From: Vicinamibacteria bacterium
Lineage (GTDB): Bacteria; Acidobacteriota; Vicinamibacteria; Vicinamibacterales; JAENWD01
Reading direction: 5' to 3'
Length of the DNA stretch: 35,822 nucleotides
Assembly (NCBI GenBank): GCA_016650245.1
Contig: JAENWD010000124.1
Coordinates: 1 to 35,822, forward strand
The translations under genes and the position numbers were made by a program. Position 1 is the first letter of the stretch. Each line of letters starts with the position of its first letter. Shown one piece after another: positions 9,430 through 34,818 of this stretch. Under the pieces are notes generated by a model, which worked only from the letters and a program-made list of their open reading frames with translations, did not search any database and was not told where the DNA came from.

Positions 9430-10482
9430 ATGACGACATCCACAGGCGCCGCGCCTTCGCCGGGCAGGAAACTGAACCGCATCGGTCTGGACGTGTCGCA
9501 GTACCGCGGCGGCAAGACGACGCTGTGTGCTGGCTGCGGCCACAACGCGATCTCCGAACGCATTATTGAGGCGTGCTTCGACCTGGGCGTGGACGCCAAG
9601 AAGGTACTGAAGCTGTCGGGCATCGGCTGCTCGAGCAAGAGTCCGGCGTACTTTCTGAGCCAGTCGCACGGCTTCAACTCGGTGCACGGCCGGATGCCAT
9701 CGGTGGCCACCGGCGCGCTGCTGGCCAACAAGACGATGGCCGCCATCGGCATCAGCGGCGACGGCGACACCGGCGCGATCGGCATCGGCCAGTTCGTGCA
9801 CCTGATGCGGCGCAACCTGCCGATGGTCTACATCATCGAGGACAACGGCTGCTACGGGCTCACCAAGGGCCAGTTCTCGCCGACCGCCGATGTGGGCTCG
9901 ACGCTCAAGAACGGCGTCGTCAACGACCTGCCGCCCATCGACACCTGCATCATGGCCATCGAGCTGGGCGCGACGTTCGTCGCCCGGTCGTTCTCGGGCG
10001 ACAAGAAGCAGCTCTCGGCGCTGCTCAAGGCGGCGATGTCGCACAAGGGCACGGCGATGCTCGACGTGCTGTCGCCTTGCGTGACCTTCAACGACCACGA
10101 AGGGTCGACCAAGAGCTACAGCTACGTGAAGGACCACGAAGAGCCTCTGGCCGATCTCAGCTTCGTGCCGTATTTCGAGGACATCGCGATCGAGCACGAG
10201 GAAGGCACGACGCGTGAAGTGGTCCTGCACGACGGCTCGACGATCGTGCTCAGGAAGCTGGACCACGACTACGACCCAACCAACAAGGCCGAAGCATTGC
10301 GCGTGGTTCGCGAAACCGCCGGTCGCGGCGAGTACGCGACGGGCTTGCTCTTCATCGACCAGCACAAGAGAGACTTCTGCACGACACTCAACCTGGTGGA
10401 CGAGCCGCTGGCGGCGTTGCCCGTGGAGCGCACGCGCCCGTCGCGCGCCGTCCTGGAGCTGCTCATGGACCATCAGCGGTAA
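9430..10482 (+). CDS. korB: 2-oxoacid:ferredoxin oxidoreductase subunit beta
   Basis: TTLCAGCGHNAISERI...GISGDGDTGAIGIGQFVHLMRRNLPMVYIIEDNGCYGLTKGQFSPT (TPP-binding). Confidence 0.95.
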   Translation: MTTSTGAAPSPGRKLNRIGLDVSQYRGGKTTLCAGCGHNAISERIIEACFDLGVDAKKVLKLSGIGCSSKSPAYFLSQSHGFNSVHGRMPSVATGALLANKTMAAIGISGDGDTGAIGIGQFVHLMRRNLPMVYIIEDNGCYGLTKGQFSPTADVGSTLKNGVVNDLPPIDTCIMAIELGATFVARSFSGDKKQLSALLKAAMSHKGTAMLDVLSPCVTFNDHEGSTKSYSYVKDHEEPLADLSFVPYFEDIAIEHEEGTTREVVLHDGSTIVLRKLDHDYDPTNKAEALRVVRETAGRGEYATGLLFIDQHKRDFCTTLNLVDEPLAALPVERTRPSRAVLELLMDHQR

Positions 10483-10483
10483 G

Positions 10484-10546
10484 CAACCCGATCAACCCGA
10501 CCAACCCGACCAACCTGACCAACCCGACCAACCCGATCAACCTGTC
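10484..10546. repeat. Seven tandem 9-bp repeats CAACCYGAY filling the korB-ndk gap
   Basis: CAACCCGAT CAACCCGAC CAACCCGAC CAACCTGAC CAACCCGAC CAACCCGAT CAACCTGTC, then AT-ATG of ndk. Confidence 0.95.
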
Positions 10547-10548
10547 AT

Positions 10549-10962
10549 ATGGAACGCACGTTCGCCATCATCAAGCCCGACGCCGTCACCGCCGCACGCG
10601 CCGGCGCGATCCTGTCCCGTATCGAGCAAGCCGGCTTCCGCGTCGTCGCGATGCGGTTGCAGCACCTGACCAGAGCCCAAGCCGAGGGCTTCTACGCCGT
10701 CCACGCCGCGCGGCCGTTTTTCAGTTCGCTCACCGACTTCATGTCGTCGGGCCCATGCGTGCTGCTCGCGCTCGAAGCGCCCGACGCGATCAAGAGGTGG
10801 CGCGCCCTGATGGGCGCGACCGATCCCGCCAAGGCCGACGCCGGCACGTTGCGCAAGGACTTCGGCCAGTCCATCGAGTTCAACGCGACGCACGGATCGG
10901 ATGCGCCTGAGACCGCGGCGTTTGAGCTGGGTTACTTTTTCCGCGGTCTGGAGTTGCGGTGA
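10549..10962 (+). CDS. ndk: Nucleoside diphosphate kinase
   Basis: [37 protein letters not shown]...[18 protein letters not shown]. Confidence 0.96.
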
Positions 10963-11060
10963 CATTGACGATTGCCGATTGACGAGTGACGATTACGCGT
11001 GGCCCGGCACCTGTGCTAATCCGCGTATAATCTGCAATCGTCAATCTACAATCTGCAATG
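10963..11060. repeat. Inverted array of 7-bp units (GATTGNN / NNCAATC) filling the ndk-DUF2905 gap
   Basis: Left CATTGACGATTGCCGATTGACGAGTGACGATTACGCG; reverse complement of right arm CATTGCAGATTGTAGATTGACGATTGCAGATTATACGCG. Confidence 0.95.
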
Positions 11061-11252
11061 GGCAAGTCCCTGGTCATCCTCGGCCTCCTCATCGCCGGCC
11101 TTGGCCTGCTGATGATGGCTGGCGTCCCGTTGGGCCGCTTGCCTGGTGACTTCTCGATTCGCCGCGGCGCGTTCACGTTCTACTTTCCGCTGGCGAGCTC
11201 GATTCTGGTCAGCGTCGTCCTGACGGGCGTGATGTATCTGCTCCGGCGCTAA
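11058..11252 (+). CDS. DUF2905 family small membrane protein
   Basis: MGKSLVILGLLIAGLGLLMMAGVPLGRLPGDFSIRRGAFTFYFPLASSILVSVVLTGVMYLLRR. Confidence 0.88.
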   Translation: MGKSLVILGLLIAGLGLLMMAGVPLGRLPGDFSIRRGAFTFYFPLASSILVSVVLTGVMYLLRR

Positions 11253-11256
11253 CGAG

Positions 11257-11286
11257 CAACCTGTCCCAACCTGACCCAACCCGTTC
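11257..11286. repeat. Three 10-bp repeats in the dcd leader
   Basis: CAACCTGTCC CAACCTGACC CAACCCGTTC, then CC-ATG. Confidence 0.85.
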
Positions 11287-11288
11287 CC

Positions 11289-11843
11289 ATGGCCATCAAA
11301 GCTGACCGCTGGATCAAACGCATGGCGCTCGAGCACGGCATGATCGAGCCGTTTGTCGAAGGCCAGGTCCGCGAGAATGTCGTGTCGTACGGGCTGTCGT
11401 CGTATGGCTACGACATCCGCGTGGCCGACGAGTTCAAAGTGTTCACCAACGTCTACGGCAGTGTCATCGACCCGAAGTCGTTCGATCCGCGGTCGTTCGT
11501 GGACATGAAGGCGGATGTCTGCATCATCCCGCCCAACTCGTTTGCCCTGGCGCGCACCATCGAGTATTTCCGGGTGCCACGCGACGTCCTCACGGTCTGC
11601 CTGGGCAAGTCCACGTACGCGCGCTGCGGGATCATCGTCAACGTCACGCCGTTCGAGCCCGAGTGGGAAGGACACGTGACGATCGAGATCTCGAATTCGA
11701 CGCCGCTGCCGGCCAAGATCTACGCCAACGAAGGCATCGCGCAGGTCTTGTTCTTCCAAAGCGACGAGGTGTGCGAGATCTCGTACAAGGACAAGAAGGG
11801 CAAGTACCAGGCGCAGCGTGGAGTGACCCTGCCGAAAATCTGA
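11289..11843 (+). CDS. dcd: dCTP deaminase
   Basis: [36 protein letters not shown]...[52 protein letters not shown]. Confidence 0.96.
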
Positions 11844-11878
11844 ATTGACGACTGCAGAGTGACGAGTGCAGATTGGGA
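11844..11878. repeat. Five 7-bp units after dcd
   Basis: ATTGACG ACTGCAG AGTGACG AGTGCAG ATTGGGA starting immediately after the dcd TGA. Confidence 0.8.
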
Positions 11879-11924
11879 TGGTCGGCGGACAACTACGTGC
11901 AGTACCGGCTGGACTATCTCTGAC

Positions 11925-11962
11925 ATCAACCAGCCCCAACCAGCCCCAACCAGTCCAAACCA
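11925..11962. repeat. 10-bp repeats in the hisS leader
   Basis: CATCAACCAG CCCCAACCAG CCCCAACCAG TCCAAACCAG, then TTTC-ATG. Confidence 0.85.
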
Positions 11963-11967
11963 GTTTC

Positions 11968-13314
11968 ATGTCTACGTCCACCCAACCTGCACGCGGCATG
12001 CGCGACTTCCTCCCGGAGGACGTGCGCCGTCGCGCCTATGTGCTCGACGTCGTCACCGACGTCTACGAGCGGTACGGGTTCGAGCCCCTCGAGACACCGG
12101 CGGTGGAGAACATCGAAACTCTGCTCGGTAAGTACGGCGACGAGGGCAACCGCCTCATCTTCAAGATCCTCAAGCGCGGCGAGCACGAGCAGACAGGCCA
12201 GGCCGATCTCGCGCTGCGGTACGACCTGACGGTGCCCCTGGCTCGCGTCGTCGCCGAGTACCGCGGCACGCTGCCGAAGTTCTTCAAGCGGTACCAGATT
12301 CAGCCGGTGTGGCGGGCCGATCGCCCAGCGCGTGGGCGGTTCCGCGAGTTCTATCAATGTGACGTGGACGCCATCGGCTCGACCTCGCCGGTTGTCGAGG
12401 TCGAGGTGTGCGCGGCGGTGAGCGACGTCCTCGAGCGTCTGGGTTTTGGTGACTTCACGATCCGGCTGAACCATCGCGAGGTGTTACGTGGGCTGCTCGA
12501 CGGCGCCGGCGTGCCCGAGACCCTGCACGACACGGCGCTGGTCGCCATCGACAAGCTGGACAAGATCGGCGCCTCCGGCGTTGTCGAGGAACTGGTGGCG
12601 CGCGGCGTTGGTCCAGGGGCCGCTCGTCAGGCGCTCGAGGCCTTCACCGCCACGGGAGATGCGTCCAACGAAGCCGTGCTGGCGCGCCTGTCGACGCAGA
12701 TCGGCAGCCACGCCAGCGCGACCGACGGGCTGCACACCCTGCGGGCAATTCTGCAGTTGTCCCAGGCGACCTCTGCGGGCCCGCTGCTGCGACTGGATCC
12801 CTCCCTCGCACGCGGCCTGTCGTACTACACCGGCGCGATCTTCGAAGTCGCGGTGGACGGTATCGGGAGCCTCGGCGGTGGCGGGCGATACGACAACCTG
12901 GTGGGGATGTTCTCCAGCGGGTCGGTGCCGGCCTGCGGCTTCTCGCTGGGCCTCGAGCGTATCCTCGTGGTGATGTCCGAGCGCGGGATGTTCCCTGCGT
13001 CGGTCACCCGCTCCAGCGCCGACGTGCTTGCGACAGTCTGGAACGCCGATGCTTTGACCGACACCCTGGCGCTGGCCCGTCTGCTTCGTGCCGCGGGCCT
13101 GCGCGTCGAGGTGTACCCCGACGCCGACAAGATCGGCAAGCAGATGAAGTACGCTTCCAGCCGCGGCGTCCGCTTCGCGACCATTGTCGGCGACGATGAG
13201 CAGGCCGCCGGAACCGTGATGGTGAAAGACCTTACCACCGGCGGGCAGACGCCCGTGCCGCGCGGCGAAGTCGCCGCCTGGCTCTCGCGACGCCTTCAGT
13301 CTCAATCCGCATAA
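11968..13314 (+). CDS. hisS: Histidyl-tRNA synthetase
   Basis: ARGMRDFLPEDVRRRAYVLDVVTDVYERYGFEPLETPAVEN...GLSYYTGAIFEVAV...GGGGRYDNLVGMF. Confidence 0.96.
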   Translation: MSTSTQPARGMRDFLPEDVRRRAYVLDVVTDVYERYGFEPLETPAVENIETLLGKYGDEGNRLIFKILKRGEHEQTGQADLALRYDLTVPLARVVAEYRGTLPKFFKRYQIQPVWRADRPARGRFREFYQCDVDAIGSTSPVVEVEVCAAVSDVLERLGFGDFTIRLNHREVLRGLLDGAGVPETLHDTALVAIDKLDKIGASGVVEELVARGVGPGAARQALEAFTATGDASNEAVLARLSTQIGSHASATDGLHTLRAILQLSQATSAGPLLRLDPSLARGLSYYTGAIFEVAVDGIGSLGGGGRYDNLVGMFSSGSVPACGFSLGLERILVVMSERGMFPASVTRSSADVLATVWNADALTDTLALARLLRAAGLRVEVYPDADKIGKQMKYASSRGVRFATIVGDDEQAAGTVMVKDLTTGGQTPVPRGEVAAWLSRRLQSQSA

Positions 13315-13323
13315 TTTCGTTGT

Positions 13324-13351
13324 AATCGTCAATCCGCAATCTGCAATCGTC
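13324..13351. repeat. Four exact-phase 7-bp repeats directly before the aspS start
   Basis: AATCGTC AATCCGC AATCTGC AATCGTC AAT-ATG; a related AATCCGC overlaps the hisS 3' end. Confidence 0.93.
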
Positions 13352-13354
13352 AAT

Positions 13355-15136
13355 ATGTCCGATCCTCTTGGTTCCCTCTCCCGCACCCACACCTGCGGCG
13401 CGCTGCGGCTGTCCGATGTCGGCAGCCACGTCGTGCTCCTTGGCTGGATCCATCGCGTCCGCGATCTCGGCGGCCTGCTGTTCCTCGACGTGCGCGACCG
13501 CCACGGCCTCACGCAGGTGATGGTCCCCAACGACAGCCCGCTGATGGCCGAGGCCAAGAAGCTCCGCTCCGAGTACGTCGTCGCGGTGCTGGGGCCTGTG
13601 CGGCGGCGGGATGTCGACACGGTGAACGCGAAGCTCGACACCGGCGAAGTGGAAGTGGTGGCGCAGGAGATTCGGCTGTTGAACGAGGCGAAGACGCCGG
13701 CGTTTTCCATCACCGACGACTCGCCGGTGAGTGAAGACGTGCGGTTGCGCTATCGCTATCTCGATTTGCGCCGGCCGCGCCTGCAGAACAATCTGGGCCT
13801 GCGGCACCGCGTGACGATGGCGATCCGGAAGTATTTCGACGCGAACGGCTTCTGGGAAATCGAGACGCCGATTCTCGGCAAGTCCACACCAGAAGGCGCG
13901 CGCGACTACCTGGTGCCCAGTCGCGTGCACCCGGGCCAGTTCTTCGCGCTGCCGCAGTCGCCGCAGTTGTTCAAGCAGATCCTGATGATCGCCGGCACCG
14001 ACCGCTACTTCCAGATCGTGAAGTGCTTTCGCGACGAGGACCTGCGGGCCGACCGCCAACCTGAGTTCACACAGGTGGACGTCGAGATCTCGTTCGCGCA
14101 CGTGGACCTGGTGTTCGGCCTCATCGAGCCGCTGATCGTCGAGGTGTTCAAGGAGATTGGCGTCCACGTGCCGACGCCGTTCCGCCGGATGCCGTACGGC
14201 GAGGCCATAGCGAAGTACGGATCGGACAAACCCGACCTGCGCGTTGCCCTGGAGATCGCGGACGTGTCGCTCGTCTGGACCGACGCCGCGTTCAACGCCT
14301 TCCGCACGATTGTCGCCGACGGGGGTGTCGTCCGGGCGCTGGTGATTCCTGGCGCCGCGCGGTACTCGCGGTCCGAGCTCGACGCGCTGGTGGACCAGGC
14401 CAAGCAACTGGGCGCGGTCGGGATCATGTGGGCGCGCAAGGTGGATGGCGCCATCAACACCAACGTCAAAGCGGCAGGGGAAGGCACGCTGCTTGCCAGC
14501 ATGGCCGCTGCCGGCTGCGGCGACCAGGATCTGATCCTGCTCGCGGGCGGCAAGGCCGACGACGCGTCGAGGCTGCTCGGGGCGTTCCGGCTGTCGCTGG
14601 CGAAGAAGGAGAACCTGATCCCGGCCGACCGGTTCGAGTTTGCCTGGATCGTCGACTTCCCGATGTTCGACTGGGACGCCCAGGACAAGCGCTGGGTGGC
14701 GATGCACCACCCGTTCACCGCGCCGCTCGACGAGGACCGTGCGATGCTCGACGGCGATCCGTCGAAGGCGCGTGCGAAAGCCTACGACCTCGTGCTCAAC
14801 GGCAGCGAGATCGGCGGCGGCAGCATCCGTATCCACGACTCGGCGATGCAGAGCCGCATCTTCCAGTTGCTGAACATCAGCGACGAGGACGCGAGGCTGC
14901 GCTTCGGCTTCTTCGTCGACGCGCTGCAGTACGGCACGCCGCCGCACGGCGGCATCGCGCTGGGCCTGGACCGCATGGTCGCGATTCTGGCGGGGGAGAA
15001 CTCCATCCGCGAAGTGATCGCGTTCCCGAAGACCGCAGCCGCCGTGGACCTGATGACCGGCGCGCCGTCGCCCGTGGACCAGAAACAGCTCGACGAGTTG
15101 AAGCTTCGTCTGGCCGCCCCCAAGCCTCCGCAGTAG
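13355..15136 (+). CDS. aspS: Aspartyl-tRNA synthetase
   Basis: RTHTCGALRLSDVGSHVVLLGWIHRVRDLGGLLFLDVRDRHGLTQVM...PQSPQLFKQILMIAG...GIALGLDRMVAILAGENSIREVIAFPKTAAAVDLMTGAPS. Confidence 0.97.
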   Translation: MSDPLGSLSRTHTCGALRLSDVGSHVVLLGWIHRVRDLGGLLFLDVRDRHGLTQVMVPNDSPLMAEAKKLRSEYVVAVLGPVRRRDVDTVNAKLDTGEVEVVAQEIRLLNEAKTPAFSITDDSPVSEDVRLRYRYLDLRRPRLQNNLGLRHRVTMAIRKYFDANGFWEIETPILGKSTPEGARDYLVPSRVHPGQFFALPQSPQLFKQILMIAGTDRYFQIVKCFRDEDLRADRQPEFTQVDVEISFAHVDLVFGLIEPLIVEVFKEIGVHVPTPFRRMPYGEAIAKYGSDKPDLRVALEIADVSLVWTDAAFNAFRTIVADGGVVRALVIPGAARYSRSELDALVDQAKQLGAVGIMWARKVDGAINTNVKAAGEGTLLASMAAAGCGDQDLILLAGGKADDASRLLGAFRLSLAKKENLIPADRFEFAWIVDFPMFDWDAQDKRWVAMHHPFTAPLDEDRAMLDGDPSKARAKAYDLVLNGSEIGGGSIRIHDSAMQSRIFQLLNISDEDARLRFGFFVDALQYGTPPHGGIALGLDRMVAILAGENSIREVIAFPKTAAAVDLMTGAPSPVDQKQLDELKLRLAAPKPPQ

Positions 15137-33571: not shown

Positions 33572-33574
33572 CTA

Positions 33575-33690
33575 GGCTGGTTGGGTCTGGTTCGGTCGGG
33601 TTGGGTCTGGTTCGGTCAGGTTGCTTGCAACCTGTTCAACCGACTCCAACCCGGCCCAACCTGATCGAACCTGGCCCAACCGGGTCAACC
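33575..33690. repeat. Inverted array of ~10-bp AACC units filling the ppdK-corA gap
   Basis: Left GGCTGGTTGGGTCTGGTTCGGTCGGGTTGGGTCTGGTTCGGT, centre CAGGTTGC-TT-GCAACCTG (33617-33634), right CAACCGACTCCAACCCGGCCCAACCTGATCGAACCTGGCCCAACCGGGTCAACC. Confidence 0.93.
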
Positions 33691-33693
33691 TCA

Positions 33694-34675: not shown

Positions 34676-34818
34676 CACGTACGCCAACCACAGAGCCACT
34701 GAGAACACCGAGGCCTCACGGAGATCTTTGGTGGTTTGATACCTCCCAGGTCAGCCAGATCCAAGGAGCATTCTGTGCGTTCTCCGTGTCCTCGGTGTTT
34801 CCGTGGTTGGCGTACGTG
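34676..34818. repeat. Long inverted repeat built of ~9-bp CACNGAG units, corA-mutL gap
   Basis: Left CACGTACGCCAACCACAGAGCCACTGAGAACACCGAGGCCTCACGGAGATC; reverse complement of right CACGTACGCCAACCACGGAAACACCGAGGACACGGAGAAC. Confidence 0.93.

Follow-up and report, generated by a model that had tools for sequence, protein, structure and literature searches.

In a Vicinamibacteria bacterium (genome G000; contig JAENWD010000124.1), the gap between ndk and the downstream DUF2905 gene is built of two inverted arrays of degenerate GATTGNN heptamers, and the reading that we favor on balance is that this feature is a member of a dispersed, non-autonomous class of intergenic hairpins located at gene 3′ ends. 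Many such hairpins are found throughout the genome, and the same gap in relatives contains other repeats or nothing; the array at this gap is therefore probably a swappable structural element rather than a switch for the neighboring gene. In the following, "the window" refers to the whole stretch of 35,822 nt that was analyzed.

Two inverted heptamer arrays join the ndk stop codon to the DUF2905 start codon

The window contains, in this order, ndk, a gap of 95 nt, the DUF2905 gene, and the dCTP deaminase gene dcd. The gene for nucleoside diphosphate kinase, ndk (10549 to 10962, + strand; Pfam NDK, E value 2.3e-51), ends with a TGA stop codon at 10960 to 10962, while the DUF2905 gene (11058 to 11252, + strand; Pfam DUF2905, E value 2.6e-20) starts with the ATG at 11058 to 11060. 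The left arm (10963 to 11002, + strand) comprises five GATTGNN units and an inner cap, GATTACG, and is separated by an 18-nt loop (11003 to 11020, not assigned to a strand) from the right arm (11021 to 11060, − strand), which is an inverted GATTGNN array that reads NNCAATC on the + strand and overlaps the next ATG. Both arms are period-7 arrays. The original prediction that the array fills the distance from the ndk stop codon to the next ATG exactly was borne out, with the left arm starting at 10963 directly after the TGA. The right arm had also been described as an imperfect reverse complement of the left arm whose final three bases are the ATG, and indeed, the two arms are complementary at 75% of 40 nt, a level that was reached by 0 of 300 shuffles of the gap. 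As had been proposed for 7-mers with a constant GATTG and a variable dinucleotide, most of the 10 arm-arm mismatches read from the sequence fall in the variable dinucleotides (8 mismatches), while one is in the core and one lies past the last unit. Folding of the RNA from 10950 to 11080, suggested at the time as a check, predicted a hairpin with a minimum free energy of −51.6 kcal/mol (z = −3.9), and none of 200 shuffles was equally stable.

The ATG at 11058 is very likely the true DUF2905 start codon because most of the DUF2905 proteins of relatives begin at the same position with Met-Gly-Lys or nearly so; the DUF2905 profile match begins at residue 2. The TATAAT hexamer that had been noticed in the right arm is present (11026 to 11031, + strand), but an internal promoter is not supported since no −35 partner, and hence no sigma-70-like hexamer pair, was found for it. 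The hexamer is a diverged version of the CGTAATC inner cap typical of the GATTG class. A rho-independent terminator was similarly rejected because the T-run is absent, and 0 terminator-like sites (GC-rich stem followed by a T-run) were identified between 10900 and 11130. A known RNA family was also rejected, as a search of Rfam with 10400 to 13500 gave no meaningful match and the single sub-threshold match falls inside ndk. The window contains two further GATTG-type arrays, of which one (11844 to 11875, + strand) is located directly 3′ of the dcd stop codon and the other (13323 to 13354, − strand) ends at the ATG of aspS (13355).

The GATTG hairpin is absent from the orthologous gap in relatives

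Seventeen relatives have the same gene order, ndk-DUF2905-dcd. Comparison of the same gap in sister genomes, another check suggested with the original prediction, revealed gaps that are tight or contain other repeat languages, and the GATTG hairpin is absent in all 17. In 8 of the 17, including G103, which has a partial DUF2905 match only, the ndk-DUF2905 gap is 0 to 19 nt. Hairpins with other units occupy the gap in G098 and G017 (CACGGAGG), G005 (ACACCAAGG), and G056 (GGGCTGGTT), and in these 4/4 relatives with a repeat-armed hairpin, the G-rich strand is on the left. G006 and G002 have GC hairpins, and G088, G064, and G001 have single arrays. Because the orthologous gaps are empty or in other languages, the GATTG hairpin does not represent a conserved element that controls DUF2905, and we set aside a locus-specific riboregulator of DUF2905 as the main reading.

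The idea that the hairpin would sequester the start codon agrees with calculation, in which the DUF2905 ATG is unpaired with a probability of 0.05; a regulatory role specific to this locus found no support. The stop and start codons are joined exactly by the arms, and a ribosome at the ndk stop codon that covers the first 8 to 15 nt downstream is predicted to raise the probability of an unpaired ATG to about 0.6 to 0.7. Both observations would fit translational coupling, in which the hairpin masks the DUF2905 start codon, ribosomes finishing ndk open the hairpin, and DUF2905 is made only together with ndk. However, not only is the hairpin missing from the orthologous gap in 17/17 relatives, with the genes nearly overlapping in several of them, but the same hairpins are also found between convergent genes; coupling can therefore not explain the hairpin class, and we regard it as a very unlikely account of the feature. 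At this one gap, coupling of ndk and DUF2905 is possible. The far arm covers the ATG because this gap is very short, and an effect of the hairpin on DUF2905 translation, if any, is probably a side effect. Altogether, the evidence does not support a DUF2905-specific switch.

GATTG arrays are dispersed and oriented relative to gene ends

The three-unit sequence GATTGNNGATTGNNGATTG has 211 exact matches in the window's genome, while the reversed control has 0. Within the order, it is present in 45 of 120 sampled genomes in very uneven counts, and the favored spacers differ, i.e., AC/CA in the window's genome, AG/GG in G020 and G031, and GC/CC in G053. The highest count (318) was observed in G035, yet few arrays were present in the 400 kb of this genome that were sampled (L091 to L110). 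Matches to a four-unit version occur in named genomes across several phyla, including Acidobacteria, Chloroflexi, Cyanobacteria, Planctomycetes, Verrucomicrobia, and Xanthomonadaceae.

For 1.05 Mb of the window's genome, genes were called by means of a simple script based on codon usage. Because part of these contigs were picked for containing matches, absolute array frequencies are biased upward, while comparisons inside the set are not obviously affected. Among 89 GATTG arrays, 78 fall in intergenic gaps. GATTG is oriented outward from the closest gene in 84 cases and toward it in 19, and paired arrays have GATTG first and CAATC second in 26 cases and the opposite order in 1. A general skew of the gaps was rejected as the cause of this polarity, as the outward G-over-C skew is 0.01 to 0.03 without GATTG arrays vs 0.09 to 0.11. 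Array ends lie within 6 nt of a gene edge in 55% of cases compared to 15% upon random placement in the same gaps, and outward arrays start at median distances of 0.5 nt (stop codons) and 8 nt (start codons). The stop codon lies inside the first array units in 19 of 42 near-stop cases, and here, the array itself provides the stop codon. Irrespective of the frame, the unit GATTGAC yields TGA, and it is the first unit in 34/45 arrays at 3′ edges vs 12/24 at 5′ edges; owing to the TGA in their outer units, arrays that adjoin a gene end can provide its stop codon. Selection for stop codons in every frame was rejected as a general cause because several other languages, by inspection, contain none.

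The arrays have a shared architecture. GATTGAC and GATTGCA alternate from the outer end (AC/CA spacers), the inner cap ATTACG is common to 20 of 26 array pairs, and 8 have GGATGCATCC-like interiors. This combination points to dispersal of copies rather than independent slippage at each site. Upon folding, gaps with two GATTG arms have a median z of −7.2, while gaps with one arm are the same as other gaps.

Many repeat languages share a mirrored layout

The GATTG heptamer is one of many gap repeats. Tandem Repeats Finder applied to the gaps returned 90 rows with a period of 7, which was the most frequent period, and many with periods of 8, 9, 10, and 14. Unrelated units include AGTTACG, AAGTGCG, AGTCCGA, GCCTTCA, GTGCCGG, the 10-mer CAACCCGACC, and the 8-mers CGAAGGCG and CACGGAGA. 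The two halves were strongly complementary in 68 of 364 gaps of 60 to 300 nt, compared to 7 after swapping of partners and 1 after shuffling, and each gap thus tends to own one language at both edges. This excess of mirrored gaps is absent in the 400 kb of G035, and the CAACCCGACC family has no polarity (9 vs 9); both observations count against the favored reading. In the window, the interval 33572 to 33693 between two genes has a 10-mer array of GGTTGGGTCT in its left part and the inverted partner, CCAACCTGGC, in its right part. The 9-/10-mer CAACCNGNC arrays at 10483 to 10548, 11257 to 11281, and 11927 to 11963 lie directly 5′ of start codons, on one strand and with no mirror arm.

A second dispersed class has CACGGAG arms. 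Its elements are 113 to 150 nt long, with ACGTACGCCAACCAC at the ends and a variable interior, and its 11 paired copies in the 1.05 Mb have clear terminal inverted repeats. Copies are found at 34681 to 34813 of the window, L077:16101-16234, L080:4880-4998, L088:8542-8683, and elsewhere; most start a few nucleotides 3′ of a stop codon, and TGATCACGT supplies the stop codon in several cases. Of 120 genomes, 29 contain the CACRGAGGN language, which dominates one genus (85 matches in G093 and 46 in G098), as GATTG dominates others. Interiors of both GATTG and CACGGAG elements (e.g., L051:12480-12609 and L088:8542-8683) hold similar GGATGCATCC-type palindromes, like nested hairpins.

REP/REPIN elements are short, dispersed, palindromic, extragenic sequences often located at gene 3′ ends. 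A REPIN- or MITE-type element mobilized by a Y1 (RAYT-like) transposase would account for the dispersed palindromic copies and for the conserved terminal inverted repeats in the 11 copies of the sister CACGGAG class, and Y1_Tnp genes are present in G000 and in 76/120 genomes of the order. Array-rich genomes appear to carry Y1 genes more often, a trend confounded by kinship. However, Y1 genes are also present in many array-free genomes, and no GATTG array was found within the fetched flanks of the three Y1 loci of G000; because arrays and Y1 genes are not linked in this genome, a RAYT/REPIN origin was rejected there. Moreover, different from REP/REPIN elements, the arms of the GATTG hairpins are degenerate tandem arrays, and a linked transposase was not found. 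Conserved ends beyond the heptamers were not seen in the GATTG class, nor, by eye, were target-site duplications. We consider such an element highly improbable as the source of the arrays.

Repeat-armed hairpins are biased toward gene 3′ ends

Repeat-armed hairpins were present in 18 of 50 convergent gaps (36%), 30 of 228 tandem gaps (13%), and 2 of 86 divergent gaps (2%), and all three comparisons are significant using Fisher's test (convergent vs divergent, p = 1.5e-7; convergent vs tandem, p = 3e-4; tandem vs divergent, p = 3e-3). Of the 51 hairpins located in tandem gaps, 42 are closer to the upstream stop codon than to the downstream start codon, while 9 are not, and the median distances are 7 nt to the stop codon and 30 nt to the start codon. 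This 3′-end bias is the best functional clue. The trend among gap types could instead reflect promoter avoidance.

Array content changes in whole units and in language between sister species

G020 and G031 share ~82 to 88% nucleotide identity over most aligned blocks and have array sites in common. The arrays at these sites differ by whole 7-nt units, and in one G031 gap, a variant unit occurs in both arms. At other orthologous gaps, the hairpins of the two genomes differ in language, or one genome has an array where the other has little. Examples of sister-species gaps with different-language hairpins, or with an array vs a T-run hairpin, are L267:13341-13427 vs L278 and L262:4697-4727 vs L281. 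Array columns of G020 and G031 have an identity of 0.90 vs 0.67 at third codon positions with only 156 nt compared, and this higher conservation could indicate sequence constraint, in one species pair and over these 156 nt.

These 7-nt steps, the variant unit shared by both arms of the G031 gap, and the rapid turnover of gap content are what would be expected if the arrays were a neutral by-product, i.e., if they arose by polymerase slippage, were mirrored by hairpin-templated copying, and survived without function where they are harmless, between genes and away from promoters. Arms within one locus are also more alike than arms between loci (p = 0.01), and the scarcity in divergent gaps fits promoter avoidance. 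(We rejected the idea that, in the inner register, the dinucleotides of the two arms pair strictly, since within-locus likeness is significant only in the best register.) On the other hand, many loci have the unit pair, its alternation, and the inner cap in common, which requires spread between loci; moreover, hairpins are more frequent in gaps with more gene 3′ ends and lie closer to stop than to start codons. We therefore judge a purely neutral origin to be unlikely. The best reading is that the hairpins are maintained more for shape than for sequence. More tentatively, and with considerable doubt, it may be that throughout the order hairpins at 3′ ends are kept by shape, with one language being swapped for an unrelated one at the same gap, even between sisters, via an as yet undescribed process that spreads and mirrors short tandem units.

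DISCUSSION

In the model that we favor, that of a dispersed hairpin class at gene 3′ ends, each arm consists of degenerate tandem copies of a short unit, the GATTGNN heptamer in the case of the ndk gap, and the hairpins adjoin gene 3′ ends, often filling the entire distance between the stop and start codons. Copies may spread as units, and slippage may lengthen and shorten their arms. Hairpins after a stop codon would persist as harmless or mildly useful at the 3′ end of the transcript, where they might stabilize the upstream mRNA or help transcription to end.

The nearest precedents are found in Xanthomonas, whose heptamer arrays have the same layout, and in the trnL intron of Nostoc. In Xanthomonas, degenerate GGGAATC heptamers are intergenic and dispersed with ~70 inverted pairs per genome, and GGGGA(C/T)T heptameric repeats are found in Nostoc (Rehm et al. 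2015, PMC4692102). The Xanthomonas repeats lie on the coding strand just 3′ of ORFs and on the non-coding strand just 5′ of them, overlap stop codons, and are scarce between divergent genes, and no function was found (PMC4692102). The GATTG arrays are likewise tandem, of 7-nt units, multi-copy, and mostly intergenic, and share with the Xanthomonas repeats the edge-hugging, outward orientation, and inverted pairing documented above. They differ from them in that GATTGAC and GATTGCA lack the G-tract of the quadruplex-forming GGGAATC, and in that many languages coexist and differ at orthologous gaps, whereas one main unit per genome was described in Xanthomonas.

The P6b stem of the Nostoc trnL group I intron contains heptanucleotide repeats (class I, TDNGATT); there, the NNTGAGT class replaces another while the stem is retained, and whole units are inserted or deleted (PMC4476775). 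Replacement of a repeat class while the stem persists is common to both systems, but P6b is a single intronic locus, whereas the GATTG-type hairpins lie in gaps between protein genes genome-wide. The TAACTGA direct repeats of Beggiatoaceae are intergenic heptamers that adjoin start codons, and some overlap upstream stop codons (MacGregor 2015, PMC4679880). They vary by insertion or deletion of 7-nt units, and were proposed to be start-codon binding sites (PMC4679880); unlike the GATTG arrays, they run in a single strand orientation and include hardly any inverted pairs. No report of such arrays in Acidobacteria or Vicinamibacter was found in literature searches. What is new here is the GATTG core, the presence of many languages in one genome, the measured 3′-end bias, and the exchange of languages at orthologous gaps.

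For the heptamer arrays reported from cyanobacteria, Xanthomonas, and other bacteria, neither an origin nor a function has been accepted. To these reports, our analysis adds testable facts: the frequency of hairpins tracks the number of 3′ ends in a gap, many languages obey one mirrored layout, and orthologous gaps change language yet keep a hairpin.
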